Shown one piece after another: positions 7,010 to 23,534 of a stretch of 64,000 bases of DNA. Each line of letters begins with the position of its first letter. The first letter of the stretch is position 1. The notes under the pieces are model-generated. The model did no database searches. It saw only the letters and a list, made by a program, of their open reading frames with translations, and had not been told where the DNA came from. The position numbers and the translations under genes are program-made. Source of the stretch: Streptomyces nigrescens (GTDB lineage Bacteria; Actinomycetota; Actinomycetes; Streptomycetales; Streptomycetaceae); contig AP026073.1 in NCBI GenBank assembly GCA_024349765.1, positions 7,068,001 through 7,132,000 of the forward strand. Reading direction: 5' to 3'.

Positions 7010-7888
7010 TCACTCCGGCGACGACGCGTAATGCACCGTCTTCGCCGTCAGCAGGAACAGGTCCGGGCGCCGGTCGACGCCCGCCGGGTCGGCCGGGTCG
7101 AGGAGCCGGTCCAGGGTCGCGAGGTCCTCGGCGTCCAGGTGGTCGGCGAGGGTGTCCCGGCAGCGCTCCAGGGACCGCCGTACGAACTGCCGGGTGCCGT
7201 CCTCCAGCGGGGCCGGCCGGTCCACGAGGAAGGTCCGGCTCCGTGCGCCGGTGAGCCCCGCGGCCCGCAGCATGCCCGGCCAGTCCTCGACCACCGCCAC
7301 CGAGCCGGGCAGCTCGTCCCGCATCCGGCCGAAGCGGACCGCGGTCGCGCCGTCGATGCGTTCCTGCAGGCCAGGACGGCCGAAGCCGAGGTCGCGCGGC
7401 AGCCAGCGGGGCGGCAGTCCGCCCTCGACGATGGCGAGGACGCCGCCCGGGGTGAGCAGGCGGGCCAGCCGGTTCAGGGCGTCCTGCTGGTCGCCGACGT
7501 GGTGCACGACCTGCCCGGACCACACCAGGTCCGCCGGGCCCAGGTCGGCGAGGCCCGCCGGGAATTCGGCGACCCTGGTCCGCAGCGGCACGCCGAGCCG
7601 CTCGGCCCGCTCCCGGGCACGGACCAGCAGCTCCGGCGTGCCGTCCACCGCCGTGACCTCGGCCTGCGGGAACAGCGCCGCCAGTCGGCAGGCGGCCACC
7701 CCGGGGCCGCTGCCGATGTCCAGGACACGACGCGGGCTCAGCTGCGTCAGCTCCTCGAACGCCTGGCGCACGTAGGGGCTGTGGACCTCGCCCTCCAGCT
7801 CCAGCAGATCGGCCATCGCGGCCCAGTCGAAGTCGTCGTCGTGCCCGAGGTGGCCGTGGTGGTGCTGCCCGTGCTTGTCGCCGCTCAT
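7010..7888 (-). CDS. Class I SAM-dependent methyltransferase with His-rich N-terminus
   Basis: 292 aa. SAM-binding motif I is VLDIGSGPGVAA; the acidic post-motif is VTAVDGTPELL, and motif IV/V-like segments are DLVWSGQVVHHVGDQ and LTPGGVLAIVEGG. The first 20 residues are unusual: GDKHGQHHHGHLGHDDD, with five histidines, a possible metal-binding tail. The family acts on small molecules or lipids; the substrate is unknown. Start ATG 7888 follows a ggaaggg-type site. Upstream lies repeat element copy A, so its promoter must sit inside or at the edge of that repeat. Confidence 0.85.
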   Translation of the reverse strand: MSGDKHGQHHHGHLGHDDDFDWAAMADLLELEGEVHSPYVRQAFEELTQLSPRRVLDIGSGPGVAACRLAALFPQAEVTAVDGTPELLVRARERAERLGVPLRTRVAEFPAGLADLGPADLVWSGQVVHHVGDQQDALNRLARLLTPGGVLAIVEGGLPPRWLPRDLGFGRPGLQERIDGATAVRFGRMRDELPGSVAVVEDWPGMLRAAGLTGARSRTFLVDRPAPLEDGTRQFVRRSLERCRDTLADHLDAEDLATLDRLLDPADPAGVDRRPDLFLLTAKTVHYASSPE

Positions 7889-7985
7889 CGCTTCCGTCCC
7901 TCCGGTTGGTGTGCCGTCAGCTCCATGCCGACGATGCGGCTGACCGGGGCACACCGGCAATCTTTATTGCCGTTCCGGCAATCTC

Positions 7986-8419
7986 CCCACGTACCCGTCT
8001 GTCCCGCCGTCGGGGTTGTTCGCCGTTGCGCGCTTTGCGGCGCCCCGTACGTACCCGGCCGTCCCGCCGCGGGTCGTCTCGCCGTTGCGCCTGGCGGCGG
8101 GCGTTGTTTGTCGGGTGCGGTGCCGGCCCTCCAGACTTCGTCCTCCGGTCCAGCCCCTCCCGTGAGTGGGAGTTTCCAAGCTGGTTGGGGGCGGACCTGG
8201 TCTGTTGGCTGCACGCACGTGGCATTACGTACACCCCCACCGGCCTTTCCCACTCCTCCAACGGGAGGGGACGGGCCGGAGGGGCCGGTTGTGTGGACGT
8301 AAAGCGTCAGCAGTCCACACAACCGGCCCCGGAGGCCCGTCACCGCACCCAACAACCACCCAGCCCGCCGCAGGCGCAACGGCGAGAAACCACCACGGCG
8401 GGACAGCCAGGTACGTGGG
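7986..8419. repeat. Composite palindromic repeat element, copy A
   Basis: About 434 bases, ending one base before the stop codon of the downstream YbjN-like gene. The element is closely similar, in inverted orientation, to copy B at 22296-22673. Its ends are mirror images: it opens CCCACGTACC and closes GGTACGTGGG, each followed inward by GTCCCGCCG, CGCCGTTGCGCC and GGGTGCGGTG-type blocks. The core is a perfect hairpin with 18-bp arms (8281-8298 and 8313-8330) around a 14-nt loop. Copy A also carries an extra tandem copy of the outer block (about 7990-8035 and 8048-8095). No protein frame is convincing. It could be a non-autonomous mobile element or a structured RNA. Confidence 0.85.
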
Positions 8420-8944
8420 CTACTCGCCCCTACGCGTCAGATGCGCGAAAGCGTCCAAGTTCCGCGTCGACTCCCCCCGCGAGACCCGCCACGCGTACTC
8501 CTTGCGGATGGCCGTGGCGAAGCCCATTTCGAGGAGGGTGTTGAAGCTGCCGTCGGCGTTCTCGAGGACGGTGCCGAGGATGCGGTCCAGCTCGTCCGGT
8601 GTGACCGCGATGAGCGGCAGCTTGCCGGCGAGGTAGATGTCGCCGAGCTTGTCGATCGCGTAACTCACGCCGTAGAGGCGGGTGTTGCGCTCCAGGAGCC
8701 ACCGGTGCACGGCCTCGTGGTTCTCGTCCGGGCGGCGGACGACGAAGGCGTTGATGGAGAGGGAGTGCCGGCCGACGATGAGCGAGCAGGTCGTCGACAG
8801 CTTGCGGGTCCCGGGGAGCTTGACGACGTAGTTGCCGTCGGACGGGGACTCCCATTCCAGGCCGGCGTCGTCCAGCGCCGTCTCGATCACCCGCCGTGCG
8901 TCCGCGGGGCGTACGTCGTCAGCCTGGGGCAGGTCGTCAGCCAT
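8420..8944 (-). CDS. YbjN domain-containing protein
   Basis: 174 aa. The central domain (about residues 15-150; [64 protein letters not shown]) fits the YbjN family, a type III secretion chaperone-like fold. This family is very often encoded beside mshA in actinomycetes, as here: its ATG overlaps the mshA stop by eight bases, so the two are co-translated. Function is unclear; in other bacteria YbjN is tied to stress tolerance. Cytoplasmic. Its stop codon abuts repeat copy A. Confidence 0.85.
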
Positions 8945-20466: not shown

Positions 20467-22293
20467 ATGCCAGCGACACCGCAACGGCGCCGCGCCATCA
20501 GCAGATTGAGGACCGGTTCGGCCGCACTGGCCGCCGCCGTCGGGATCGGCGTCACCGTCGCCGCCCTGCCGGCCGGGGCCGACACCGTGCACCCTGACCG
20601 GACCGGTCACCCCGGCCGCACCGTCGACGTCCAGCTGCTCTCCTTCAACGACTTCCACGGCAACCTCGAACCGCCGCAGGGCTCCTCCGGCACGGTCGAG
20701 GAACTGCAGGCCGACGGCACCAAGAAGAGCGTGCCGGCCGGCGGGGTCGAGTACCTGGCCCAGTCCCTGCGCACGGCCCGCAAGGGCCACCCCTACTCGG
20801 TCACCGCGGCGGCGGGCGACCTGGTCGGCGCCAGCCCGCTGCTGTCCGGGCTGTTCCACGACGAGCCGACCATCGAGGCCATGAACAAGCTGGGCCTGGA
20901 CGTCACCTCCGTCGGCAACCACGAATTCGACGAGGGCCGCGCGGAGTTGACCCGGCTGCAGAACGGCGGCTGCCACCCCAAGGACGGCTGCTACGAGGAC
21001 GGCAAGAAGTTCGCCGGCGCGGACTTCCCGTACCTGACCGCCAACGTCACCGACGAGAAGACCGGCAAGCCGCTGCTCAAGCCGTACACCGTGTGGCGGC
21101 ACAAGGGCGTGAAGATCGGCTTCATCGGCGTGACCCTCGAAGGCACCCCGGACATCGTCAGCGCCAACGGCATCAAGGGCCTGAAGTTCCACGACGAGGT
21201 CGAGACGATCGACAAGTACGCCAAGGTCCTCGACAAGCAGGGCGTCAAGGCGATCGTGGCCCTCATCCACGAAGGCGGCCTGCCCGCCTCCACCTCCTAC
21301 AACTACAACTGCGACAGCCCCGGCCCCGGCGACGGCATCTCCGGCCCGATCACCGAGATCGCCAAGCACGTCACGTCCAAGGTCGACGCGCTGGTCACCG
21401 GCCACACCCACCAGGCGTACGCCTGCACCATCCCCGACCCGTCGGGCCGGCCGCGCACCGTCACCTCCGCCGCGTCCTACGGCAAGCTCTACACCGACAC
21501 CGAGCTGACCTACGACCGGCGCACCCACGACATCGTCCGCACCAGCGTCAAGGCGCCCGGTGCGGTCAACCACGTGGTCGACCGCACCCAGCCCAAGGCC
21601 GCGGACATGACGTCCCTGATCGGCCGCTGGAACAAGCTGGCCGCGCCGGTCGCGGCCCGCCCGGTCGGCCACATCGCCGCCGACATCGCCGGCCGCGGCG
21701 CGAACGCCCCCGAGTCCCCGCTCGGCGACGTCATCGCCGACGCCCAGCTCGAAGCGACCAAGGCCGCCGACAAGGGCGGCGCCCAGCTCGCCCTGATGAA
21801 CCCCGGCGGCATCCGCTCCGACCTCGCCTACCAGGCGTCCGGCTCCGAGGGCGACGGCGTCGTCACCTACGGCGAGGCGTTCACGGTCCAGCCGTTCACC
21901 AACATGATGAACGTCGTCGACCTCACCGGCGCCCAGCTGCTGACCGCCCTCCAGCAGCAGGTCAGCGGCCCCAACGAGGCGTCCCCCAAGATCCTCCAGG
22001 TCTCCACGGGTCTCACCTACACCCTCGACATGACCAAGAAGGGCGCCGACCGCGTCGTCAAGGACTCCGTCGAACTGAACGGCGCCGCGCTCGACCCCGC
22101 CAAGACCTACCGCGTCGCGATGAACGAGTTCCTCGCCGGCGGCGGTGACGGCTTCGCCGCCTTCAAGGACGCCAAGAACAAGTACGTCGGCCCGTCCGAC
22201 CTGGACGCCTTCACGGCGTACCTGACGGCGCACTCCTCGGCGTCTTCGCCGCTTTCGCCGCCTGCGGCGTCTCGCATTCACGTGGTGAAGTAA
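20467..22293 (+). CDS. Secreted bifunctional metallophosphatase/5'-nucleotidase
   Basis: 608 aa. Signal peptide of about 39 residues with an Arg-rich n-region (QRRRAISRLR). Two-domain UshA-like enzyme: metallophosphatase motifs NDFHGN (62-66), GNHEFDEG (about 155) and VTGHTHQAY (about 310), then the C-terminal 5'-nucleotidase domain (MNPGGIRSDL, FTVQPFTNMMNVVDLTG, NEFLAGGGDGFAAF). It removes phosphate from extracellular nucleotides to feed uptake. This is the SCO4152-type enzyme, which I recall as part of the Pho regulon, though I see no clear PHO box in 20269-20466. Start ATG 20467 has AGGAGG eight bases ahead. Its stop abuts repeat copy B. Confidence 0.93.
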   Translation: MPATPQRRRAISRLRTGSAALAAAVGIGVTVAALPAGADTVHPDRTGHPGRTVDVQLLSFNDFHGNLEPPQGSSGTVEELQADGTKKSVPAGGVEYLAQSLRTARKGHPYSVTAAAGDLVGASPLLSGLFHDEPTIEAMNKLGLDVTSVGNHEFDEGRAELTRLQNGGCHPKDGCYEDGKKFAGADFPYLTANVTDEKTGKPLLKPYTVWRHKGVKIGFIGVTLEGTPDIVSANGIKGLKFHDEVETIDKYAKVLDKQGVKAIVALIHEGGLPASTSYNYNCDSPGPGDGISGPITEIAKHVTSKVDALVTGHTHQAYACTIPDPSGRPRTVTSAASYGKLYTDTELTYDRRTHDIVRTSVKAPGAVNHVVDRTQPKAADMTSLIGRWNKLAAPVAARPVGHIAADIAGRGANAPESPLGDVIADAQLEATKAADKGGAQLALMNPGGIRSDLAYQASGSEGDGVVTYGEAFTVQPFTNMMNVVDLTGAQLLTALQQQVSGPNEASPKILQVSTGLTYTLDMTKKGADRVVKDSVELNGAALDPAKTYRVAMNEFLAGGGDGFAAFKDAKNKYVGPSDLDAFTAYLTAHSSASSPLSPPAASRIHVVK

Positions 22294-22295
22294 CG

Positions 22296-22673
22296 CCCAC
22301 GTAGTTGTCTGCGGCGCCGCGGTTGTTGCTCGCCGTTGCGCCTGCGGCGGGCCAGGTTGTTGTTGGGTGCGGTGACGGGCCTCCGGGGCCGGTTGTGTGG
22401 ACTGCTGACGCTTTACGTCCACACAACCGGCCCCTCCGGCCCGTCCCCTCCCGTGAGAGGGGAAGTTAAGGACGGTGGGGGTGCAGGTAATGCCCACGAG
22501 CCCGCAGGCAACAGACCAGGCCCGCCCCCAACCAGCTCAGCAACTCCCACTCACGGGAGGGGCTGGACCGGAGGACGAAGTCTGGAGGGCCGGCACCGCA
22601 CCCGACACACAAACGCCCGCCACCAGGCGCAACGGCGAACAAGCCCCGCGGCGGGACAGACGGGTACGTGGGG
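22296..22673. repeat. Composite palindromic repeat element, copy B
   Basis: About 378 bases filling the whole gap between two convergent stop codons (22293 and 22674). On the minus strand it reads closely along copy A, including the outer CACGTACCC-GTCCCGCCG block, the CGCCGTTGCGCC block, and the CCTCCCGTGAG block. The core perfect hairpin has arms at 22385-22402 and 22417-22434 with the same 14-nt loop as copy A. Left and right halves are themselves inverted versions of each other, so the window holds four half-units. It may also act as a bidirectional terminator here. Confidence 0.85.
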
Positions 22674-23534
22674 TCAAGAGAAATCGGCCACGTGGTCCCG
22701 CGCCCACTGGGCGAACGTGCGCGCGGGGTGGCCCGTGATCCGTTCGACCGCGTCGGAGAGTGGGAAGGCCGGGGCGTCGACCGTGTTGCCGAACCACCGG
22801 ACCAGCTCCAGGGCCGCCTCCTTCGGCAGGTGGGGGCCGGACATCGCCTCGGCGGCGGCCTCCTCGGTGATCTGCTCGACCCGGGTCTCGCGGCCGATCG
22901 CCCGGCCGATCTCGGCGACCTGGTCGGCGACGGTCAGCGACTCGGGGCCGGTGACGAGGTAGACCTGGCCGGTGTGGGTGCCGGTGCGGTCCAGGAGGGC
23001 GACGGCGGCGACGTCCGCGAGGTCCGCCTCGTGGACCGGGACGCCCTGGGCGCCCGGGTGGGCGTCGCGGACCACTCCGGTGTCGCGGATCGCCGGACCC
23101 CAGGCCAGTGCGTTGGTGGCGTAGTTGCCGCCGCGGACGAAGGTCCACTCCAGGCCGGAGGCGCGCACCGCGCGCTCCAAAGTGGCGTGCATCCGGGAGA
23201 TGAAGTTGTTCTCGTCGGCGGGGGTGTCGGTCACCCCCATCGAGGAGTTGAGGACGATCCGGCGGACGCCGGCCTTGGCCGCGGCCTCGGCCAGGGCGAC
23301 CGCGGCCCGTTCGCCGCCGGCCGCCAGGTTGAGGAAGAGGGCGTCGGCACCGGCGAGGAGGGGCACGAAGTCGGCGGCGTCGCCGGTGAGATCGGCGCGT
23401 ACCACCTCCGCCCCGGCGGGCAGTTGGGCGCGCGCCGGGTCGCGGGTCAGGGCGCGTACGGCGACGCCGTCCGCGAGGAGCCGGTCGACGAGGCTGCGGC
23501 CGATGTTGCCGGTTGCTCCGGTTACCACGATCAT
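22674..23534 (-). CDS. NmrA-family NAD(P)-binding protein
   Basis: 286 aa Rossmann protein of the atypical SDR/NmrA group. The dinucleotide motif is VTGATGNIGRSLVDRLL at residues 4-20; the RxxRDP cofactor segment is VRALTRDPARAQL; no classical YxxxK pair is evident where expected (LNSSMGVTD). Such proteins act as redox sensors or as quinone/azo reductases. ATG 23534. It is divergent from a DUF2993 gene with a 189-base spacer carrying a TACC-TAC-GGTA palindrome. Stop touches repeat copy B. Confidence 0.85.
   Translation of the reverse strand: MIVVTGATGNIGRSLVDRLLADGVAVRALTRDPARAQLPAGAEVVRADLTGDAADFVPLLAGADALFLNLAAGGERAAVALAEAAAKAGVRRIVLNSSMGVTDTPADENNFISRMHATLERAVRASGLEWTFVRGGNYATNALAWGPAIRDTGVVRDAHPGAQGVPVHEADLADVAAVALLDRTGTHTGQVYLVTGPESLTVADQVAEIGRAIGRETRVEQITEEAAAEAMSGPHLPKEAALELVRWFGNTVDAPAFPLSDAVERITGHPARTFAQWARDHVADFS

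Follow-up and report, generated by a model that had tools for sequence, protein, structure and literature searches.

Structure and genomic context of the two copies

The window, i.e. the whole stretch of 64,000 nucleotides of Streptomyces nigrescens DNA that was analysed, contains two copies of a nested palindromic element in opposite orientation (Table 1). Copy A is situated between a methyltransferase gene and a YbjN-family gene. The second, inverted copy reported in the earlier note was located as copy B between two convergent genes, 2 bp past the TAA stop codon of the first and 1 bp from the TGA that ends the second. A BLAST comparison of the window with the family, counting stretches of at least 25 bp with at least four overlapping hits, found copies A and B only.

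Table 1. Features of copies A and B and of the adjoining genes in the window.
Feature	Position	Strand	Remarks
Copy A, whole element	7986..8419	+	GTAAAGCGTCAGCA loop lies on the + strand; TAG stop of the YbjN gene adjoins the right edge
Outer block 1 (CCCACGTACC ... GCGCTTTGCGGCGCC)	7986..8044	+	
Outer block 2	8045..8104	+	repeats block 1 in tandem at a spacing of 59-60
Left inner arm	8105..8132	+	partner of 8331-8358
Left hairpin unit of copy A	8133..8163	+	
Variable middle segment	8164..8260	+	separates the two halves of copy A
5' arm of perfect 18-bp stem	8281..8298	+	
14-nt loop GTAAAGCGTCAGCA	8299..8312	+	identical in all 64 host cores found by pattern
3' arm of perfect 18-bp stem	8313..8330	+	
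Right inner arm	8331..8358	+	partner of 8105-8132
Right outer block	8359..8419	+	inverted relative to blocks 1 and 2
Copy B, inverted	22296..22672	-	loop 22403-22416, arms 22385-22402 and 22417-22434
Methyltransferase gene	7010..7888	-	5' side toward copy A, about 97 bp off; Pfam
YbjN-family gene	8420..8944	-	stop codon 8420-8422 touches copy A; Pfam
5'-nucleotidase gene	20506..22293	+	ends at copy B; Pfam
NmrA-like gene	22674..23534	-	ends at copy B; Pfam

The outer ends of copy A read CCCACGTACC (7986-7995) and GGTACGTGGG (8410-8419). The nested inverted repeats described earlier for this copy were borne out by measurement: the outer arms (7986-8031/8374-8419, 46 nt) are 87% complementary, the inner arms (8105-8132/8331-8358 and 8142-8163/8261-8282) 86% in both pairs, and the hairpin arms (8267-8298/8313-8344, 32 nt), which enclose the perfect 18-bp stem, 88%. 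Also the perfect hairpin with its 18-bp arms and 14-nt loop was present as described. The extra tandem duplication of the outer block is real, with 7989-8009 recurring at 8049-8069 at a spacing of 60, but it is not peculiar to copy A; extra outer blocks are found also in other copies of the family, and the length of the element varies between copies. The open reading frames listed across copy A overlap in several frames and were treated as spurious, in line with the previously noted lack of a protein frame. The folding energy of the region 7980-8425 was -296.7 kcal/mol on the + strand and -305.4 kcal/mol on the - strand (z-scores -14.8 and -15.1, respectively), and none of 100 shuffled sequences folded as well on either strand.

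Copy number and distribution

A 22-nt pattern search allowing up to three mismatches identified 64 hairpin cores, belonging to 61 elements, in the host genome, which has two contigs and 9.33 Mb in total; 57 of the cores were exact, four had one mismatch, one had two and two had three. A control pattern had no sites in the same genome. Such patterns miss copies that lack the loop, and they were used for counting because similarity to copy A was scored for 40 of 183 candidates. The closest relative of copy A among these 40 was 93% similar, though the cores were identical. The 8.25-Mb contig carried all 64 cores and the 1.07-Mb contig carried none (probability about 0.0004 under uniform placement). 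The centre of the chromosome, 2.62-4.31 Mb, held one of the 61 listed core positions. The second replicon of strain BHT-5-2 (2.8 Mb) carried five cores, compared with none on the 1.07-Mb contig of the host.

Streptomyces endophytica HNM0140 had 51 cores, 46 of them exact. The exact 28-nt core was found in 50 stretches of a collection of named genome contigs, which may lack near relatives or the host itself, 42 of them in HNM0140 and eight in NRRL S-337. The loop hairpin pattern GACGTAAAGCG-N(0-2)-CAGCAGTC was present in seven of 392 sampled Streptomyces genomes, with 64 matches in the host, 75 in S-337 (G194), 44 in BHT-5-2 (G337), 20 in G175, seven in G191, two in G265 and one in G064; the reversed control pattern had no matches in the 392 genomes. 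A search allowing up to two mismatches gave 13 of the 392 genomes, those other than the host and S-337 having one or two hits each with one or two mismatches. The many copies in Streptomyces genomes that the earlier note suggested looking for were thus found, and together with the sites that are empty in relatives (see below) they support its reading of an interspersed repeat.

Short matches were found in nine of 61 relatives, host included, and strong ones only in the host (the whole element) and in G036 (a unit of about 50 bp). In G036 the matching region (L032, 1280-2057) is a tandem array with a period of about 195 bp whose units are related to copy A's left hairpin; the loop hairpin pattern had no match in this genome. 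Plasmid or phage origin was also considered and rejected: in record sets from which records near the host may be absent, no phage record matched, and a single plasmid record, BHT-5-2 p1, matched 38% of the query at 76.6%.

The elements span 234-662 bp in the host and 190-729 bp in BHT-5-2. Most host elements have a single loop hairpin and a different left half, and doublet cores are present at L094, L095 and L096. In BHT-5-2, 17 of 31 segments include two loop hairpins with the cores 234-258 bp apart, inverted in 16 of the 17 pairs. At L095 and L096 of the host the two loop hairpins are likewise in inverted orientation, one stem in L095 being TTTCCGGAC. A sister version of the element with an outer end like CCGTACGTTTTCGGCTTTCCCGCCGT was seen at L095, L096, L099 and L103 of the host and at L274 of BHT-5-2. 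In the draft genome of S-337 several cores lie a few hundred bases from contig starts, so such repeats may be breaking draft assemblies.

Placement relative to genes

The 64 host cores are contained in 59 stretches, in which the element edges were set by BLAST against other copies; genes were called with an in-house composition script rather than a published gene finder, for these stretches as well as for a 400-kb background. Of the 84 flanking gene 3' ends of the 61 host elements, 67 were within 10 bp of the element edge, four at 12-20 bp and three far away, while the remaining ten overlapped the BLAST-defined edge by 14-38 bp, which leaves the edges themselves uncertain. Only three of 37 flanking gene 5' ends were within 10 bp. 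The earlier note had placed copy A upstream of a methyltransferase gene. The 5' side of that gene does face the element, but the position looks incidental, the shared trait of most copies being that they directly follow a stop codon.

Twenty-nine of the 61 host elements lie between convergent, 25 between co-directional and six between divergent genes, with one unresolved; the 400 kb of host chromosome contained 63 convergent, 179 co-directional and 64 divergent pairs (convergent against divergent, Fisher p 0.0004). A similar placement was found in BHT-5-2, where 17 segments were convergent, 13 co-directional, none divergent and one unresolved (n = 31), and where the distance to the element was at most 25 bp for 36 of 48 gene 3' ends and at most 10 bp for 22 of them.

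An end of the CCCACGT or ACGTA type was recognised at 61 of 81 listed gene ends, CCCACGTAC being the commoner form and CCCACGTAG the minority, and 37 of these 61 begin 0-3 nt past the stop codon. The base profile just outside both end types is T-rich. The stop codon was TGA in 33 of 67 element-adjoining genes compared with 74% of 274 control genes, and the fraction of G or C at the third position of the last codon was 0.63 compared with 0.88. ACGTAG ends seem to supply the TAG stop on the right side of L006 and the left sides of L008, L011 and L098 in the host, and on the left sides of L294 and L306 in BHT-5-2. A general explanation by which insertion makes the stop codon was rejected, since the stops at L015 (left), L104 and L095 (left) align with those of element-free relatives, and native stops therefore occur. 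At L015 the left gene stops at the aligned position in G374; in the relatives compared at L096 the alignment around the stops is less clear.

Loop conservation and stem covariation

The loop, GTAAAGCG(N)CAGCA, is 13-14 nt long in the family and is kept while the stem changes by paired substitutions. The form GCGTCAGCA was present in 64 of 64 host cores and 50 of 51 HNM0140 cores, and GCGCAGCA in 44 of 49 BHT-5-2 cores and 20 of 29 G175 cores, the rest having GCGAAGCA; each count covers the cores findable by its own pattern. Each genome mostly has a single version, but with exceptions: S-337 has both GCGACAGCA and GCGTCAGCA loops, and GCGAAGCA is a minor loop in BHT-5-2, G175 and G191.

Sixty distinct stems were obtained from eight genome groups. 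They include quite different sequences (GTTGTGTGGAC, GTGTGTCGGAC, GTGTGCAGGAC and TTTCCGGAC), and in 20 compared rows the unbroken stem was 13-32 bp long in 14 and 5-8 bp in six. At each of the stem positions 5-14, 53-58 of the 60 stems were Watson-Crick paired and shuffled partners gave means of 21-46; the stems are related by descent, so the shuffles overstate the significance and do not provide probabilities. Altogether, 551 of the 600 cells were Watson-Crick pairs, nine G-T pairs and 40 mismatches. The scarcity of G-T pairs points to pairing at the DNA level or to templated correction rather than to selection on RNA, and a constraint acting on RNA only was rejected on the same count. Rfam gave no match in the window at the curated threshold; the 17 sub-threshold matches were to 16 microRNA models and one chrB-b. 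The structured RNA proposed earlier is a possible reading that neither the pairing counts nor the Rfam result favours.

The four one-mismatch host cores (positions 2208278, 4908101, 6084636 and 7859769) are alike in reading GTCCCC where the common form has GTCCAC. The opposite arm has changed too in L093 and L098, and the flank-matched HNM0140 stretches of two of these cores (L079 and L042) have the common form, which suggests that the variant may have spread within one genome.

Comparison of shared sites between strains

Based on the flanking sequence, 42 of the 64 host cores could be paired with an HNM0140 core on the same side, and 44 of the 59 host stretches had a flank match among the 50 core-bearing HNM0140 and S-337 loci. 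Ten of the 59 matched ten of 29 BHT-5-2 stretches, with both flanks visible for eight of the ten in the rows shown, at about 82-94% identity. Host and BHT-5-2 thus share sites, yet differ in loops and stems.

Genes near the elements differ by about 2% between the host and HNM0140. In a gapped comparison of 38 of the 42 pairs (L094, L095 and L096 excluded), the right halves of copies at the same site differed by 15.0% at +50 from the loop and by 25.8% at +100, compared with 14.2 and 24.2% between copies at different sites; inspection by eye agreed. In the bins from -40 to +40 around the loop the difference was 0-7% in same-site and different-site pairs alike, the zero divergence of the core being partly by construction because the HNM0140 loci were fetched by the exact 28-nt core; free of this bias, 46 of 51 HNM0140 cores were exact. 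The left half keeps a site signal, with 0.5% difference between same-site and 4.7% between different-site copies at -180, so any exchange has been incomplete or uneven. We read the resemblance of copies to their genome more than to their site as probable continuing exchange between copies. A tight consensus in which point changes accumulate very fast at a few free positions would also give such a result.

Divergence of adjoining gene ends

The 3' ends of genes next to elements (edge distance -12 to +20, flank of at least 400 bp, 90% identity) differed between the host and HNM0140 by 9.2% in the last 15 bp, 13.2% at 15-30 bp, 5.1% at 30-60 bp and 2.7% at 60-120 bp, and by 1.8-2.0% further in. 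In the same first four bins, 29 gene ends away from elements gave 4.1, 2.3, 2.2 and 2.7%, a second set of 97 control ends 1.9, 3.0, 2.9 and 2.1%, and the 35 convergent ends among the latter 2.9, 3.8, 3.9 and 2.7%. Compared with the convergent controls, the two bins of the last 30 bp were clearly in excess (p 5e-6 and 4e-9), unlike the 30-60 bp bin (p 0.15). That gene ends always diverge faster was rejected as an explanation, since neither control set showed this, apart from the 4.1% of the smaller one in its last 15 bp.

Calculated per gene, and with alignments ending more than 5 bp short dropped, the last 30 bp differed by 11.6% in 48 element ends and by 2.3% in 95 control ends (Mann-Whitney p 2.7e-13), and no difference between the two was found at 120-600 bp. 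In the comparison with the 97 control ends, the element set was slightly less diverged at 480-900 bp (2.0 vs 2.5%). The changed codons in 35 gap-free ends were synonymous in 113 cases and non-synonymous in 40, so that the fast change of the DNA leaves the proteins mostly conserved. The substitutions at the element-adjacent gene ends showed no adenine-specific pattern. Divergence was raised also in flanks on gene 5' sides, with uncontrolled values of 6.2 and 6.7% within 30 bp.

Sites without the element

Several sites occupied in the host are empty in relatives. The element of L104 is absent from HNM0140, S-337 has a spacer of about 25 bp instead of the element at L095, and a few to about 40 bp separate the L100 gene pair in other Streptomyces, with no element between them. 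In HNM0140 the copy B site has other genes and no family sequence. At this site (L187, about 433-1646) two small adjoining genes, by eye toxin-antitoxin-like, and a membrane-protein-like gene were observed. The copy A site has only an outer remnant in S-337 and an element with a two-mismatch core in HNM0140, where also partial elements remain at the L098 and L106 sites.

Target duplications, which the earlier note had thought worth looking for together with empty sites, were not found: none of the 41 host elements with both ends recognised had direct repeats of 3-9 bp at its edges, and 2-bp repeats occurred once against 1.9 expected. Judging from these alignments, the element appears to replace a short spacer rather than to leave a duplication. 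An autonomous partner was looked for in the 2.2-kb stretches that separate the inverted cores of two pairs (L092 and L093) and not found there, as these contain ordinary genes (by eye of the GNAT type, the LysR type and a permease) and no transposase. The Y1/RAYT transposase family (PF01797) had no members in the host (G000) or HNM0140 (G319). S-337 has a single Y1 gene, with no family sequence within about 1.5 kb.

Discussion

With moderate confidence we regard copy A as a REP- or REPIN-like palindromic repeat of gene 3' ends, about ten times the size of a classical REP, kept uniform by exchange between copies and having mutagenic edges. This reading rests on the many copies, the adjacency to stop codons, the kept loop on a covarying stem, the turnover at shared sites and the fast-changing flanks.

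According to PMC3733652, REPs are 20-40 bp long and have short loops and GTAG or CGTC tags; most convergent REPs of P. entomophila and S. wittichii lie less than 20 bp from both 3' ends, co-directional REPs lie close to the upstream gene, and the ends of GTAG REPs often give the TAG stop. The words 'Streptomyces' and 'Actinobact' do not occur in its main text. The REP/BIME class (GTAG- and CGTC-tagged) and the Streptomyces family are both of high copy number, intergenic and palindromic, lie near gene 3' ends in convergent or co-directional placement, form dimers and have ends that possibly supply a TAG stop. The Streptomyces elements differ in the sizes given above for the host and BHT-5-2, in the perfect 18-bp stem of copy A and in the kept 13-14-nt loop; no REP tag was seen by eye at the foot of the loop hairpin, although some outer ends read CCCACGTAG. 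The REPIN (PMC3116915) is a unit of two inverted hairpins and a spacer, as in the two-hairpin segments of BHT-5-2. The Streptomyces units are far larger than REPINs associated with RAYTs, and RAYT/Y1 genes are missing from the host and HNM0140. E. coli inverted repeats that form cruciforms are enriched just after stop codons (PMC6060812); inverted repeats of longer arm and short spacer mostly belong to intrinsic terminators there, rather than forming one sequence family that shares a kept loop. An account of the Streptomyces family was not found in the titles and abstract openings of the best-ranked open-access matches of a literature search, and an earlier one in a subscription paper is possible. 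The main text of the paper describing HNM0140 (PMC10111032) does not contain 'repeat' or 'palindrom'.

The following course of events would account for the observations. Single-stranded or supercoiled DNA may allow the nested palindrome to be extruded as a hairpin or cruciform, which may then be cut or cause template switching. The cut or mis-copied element would be repaired by copying from another copy; conversion between copies is what we infer from the compared sequences. Repeated exchange of this kind would keep the hairpin and loop uniform within each genome while reshuffling the variable blocks, and the adjoining gene ends would acquire mutations through error-prone synthesis at the borders of repaired tracts. 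Directly after a stop codon such DNA may be least harmful, and a hairpin in that position may also stop transcription arriving from either side or slow ribosomes, as reported for the REPs of E. coli.

A putative protein recognising the loop is likely. A stronger form of the idea, which we put forward only tentatively and think rather improbable, is that of a loop-tagged, self-homogenising recombination unit: a loop-specific protein would open or cut the hairpin, copies would overwrite each other, and the last 30-60 bp of genes would be mutated. Loop and stems would then drift together genome-wide, so that each lineage has its own version. If this holds, the family would be inherited as a local mutator acting on the 3' ends of genes.

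Bacterial MITEs (Correia/NEMIS and RUP) are non-coding, have inverted ends and occur in many copies, all of which the Streptomyces family shares, and the family could be a MITE-like non-autonomous transposon with a putative transposase favouring T-rich gene ends, its turnover being repeated excision and re-insertion. We consider this possible, if doubtful. The recognised ends just past stop codons, the T-rich profile outside both ends and the element-free sites at L104, at L095 in S-337 and at copy B in HNM0140 would fit it. It is opposed by the lack of direct repeats at the 41 testable elements, by the ordinary genes found between the nearest inverted pairs where a parent transposon was sought, by the absence of Y1 genes from the host and HNM0140, and by the fact that no near-identical copy of copy A was present among the 40 candidates scored. 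The non-autonomous mobile element proposed in the earlier note stands in so far as a non-coding repeat appears to be spreading by copying, but not as a classic MITE.

The hairpin might act at the transcript level as a two-sided terminator, a stabiliser of mRNA 3' ends or a ribosome-stalling structure, and be kept by selection. The enrichment of convergent pairs and the very stable fold on both strands are consistent with this, and ribosome stalling in E. coli has been reported for REPs at most 15 nt from a stop codon (PMC12306157). Nevertheless, we think it unlikely: the covarying cells are almost all Watson-Crick, which is unexpected under RNA selection alone, termination does not need a kept 14-nt loop, and the loop hairpin was present in only seven of the 392 sampled Streptomyces.

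Mutagenic homing resembling that of diversity-generating retroelements, in which a hairpin after the stop codon rewrites the gene end, would explain the hairpin directly after the gene and the confinement of divergence to the last 30-60 bp; it is scarcely credible given that the changes are mostly synonymous and not adenine-specific and that dozens of different genes are concerned. Finally, chance or the local duplication of ordinary spacer DNA, with no other copies in related genomes, which the earlier note had named as the case against the element, can safely be dismissed with 64 cores found genome-wide against none for the control and with other species carrying the family.

The family combines an unusual size with a kept loop on covarying stems, signs of homogenisation within genomes and a fast-changing border; it departs from REPs in size and loop and in having no RAYT in the host. 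The title of a 1988 review reportedly asks whether REP-type repeats evolve by gene conversion. The present family offers a natural test of that question, with about 60 marked sites per genome, many of them common to close strains, a loop version mostly tied to its genome and a turnover of the remaining sequence that can be measured. It also ties a palindrome to raised substitution in the adjoining gene ends, and its kept loop provides a motif by which a recogniser protein may be sought in Streptomyces.
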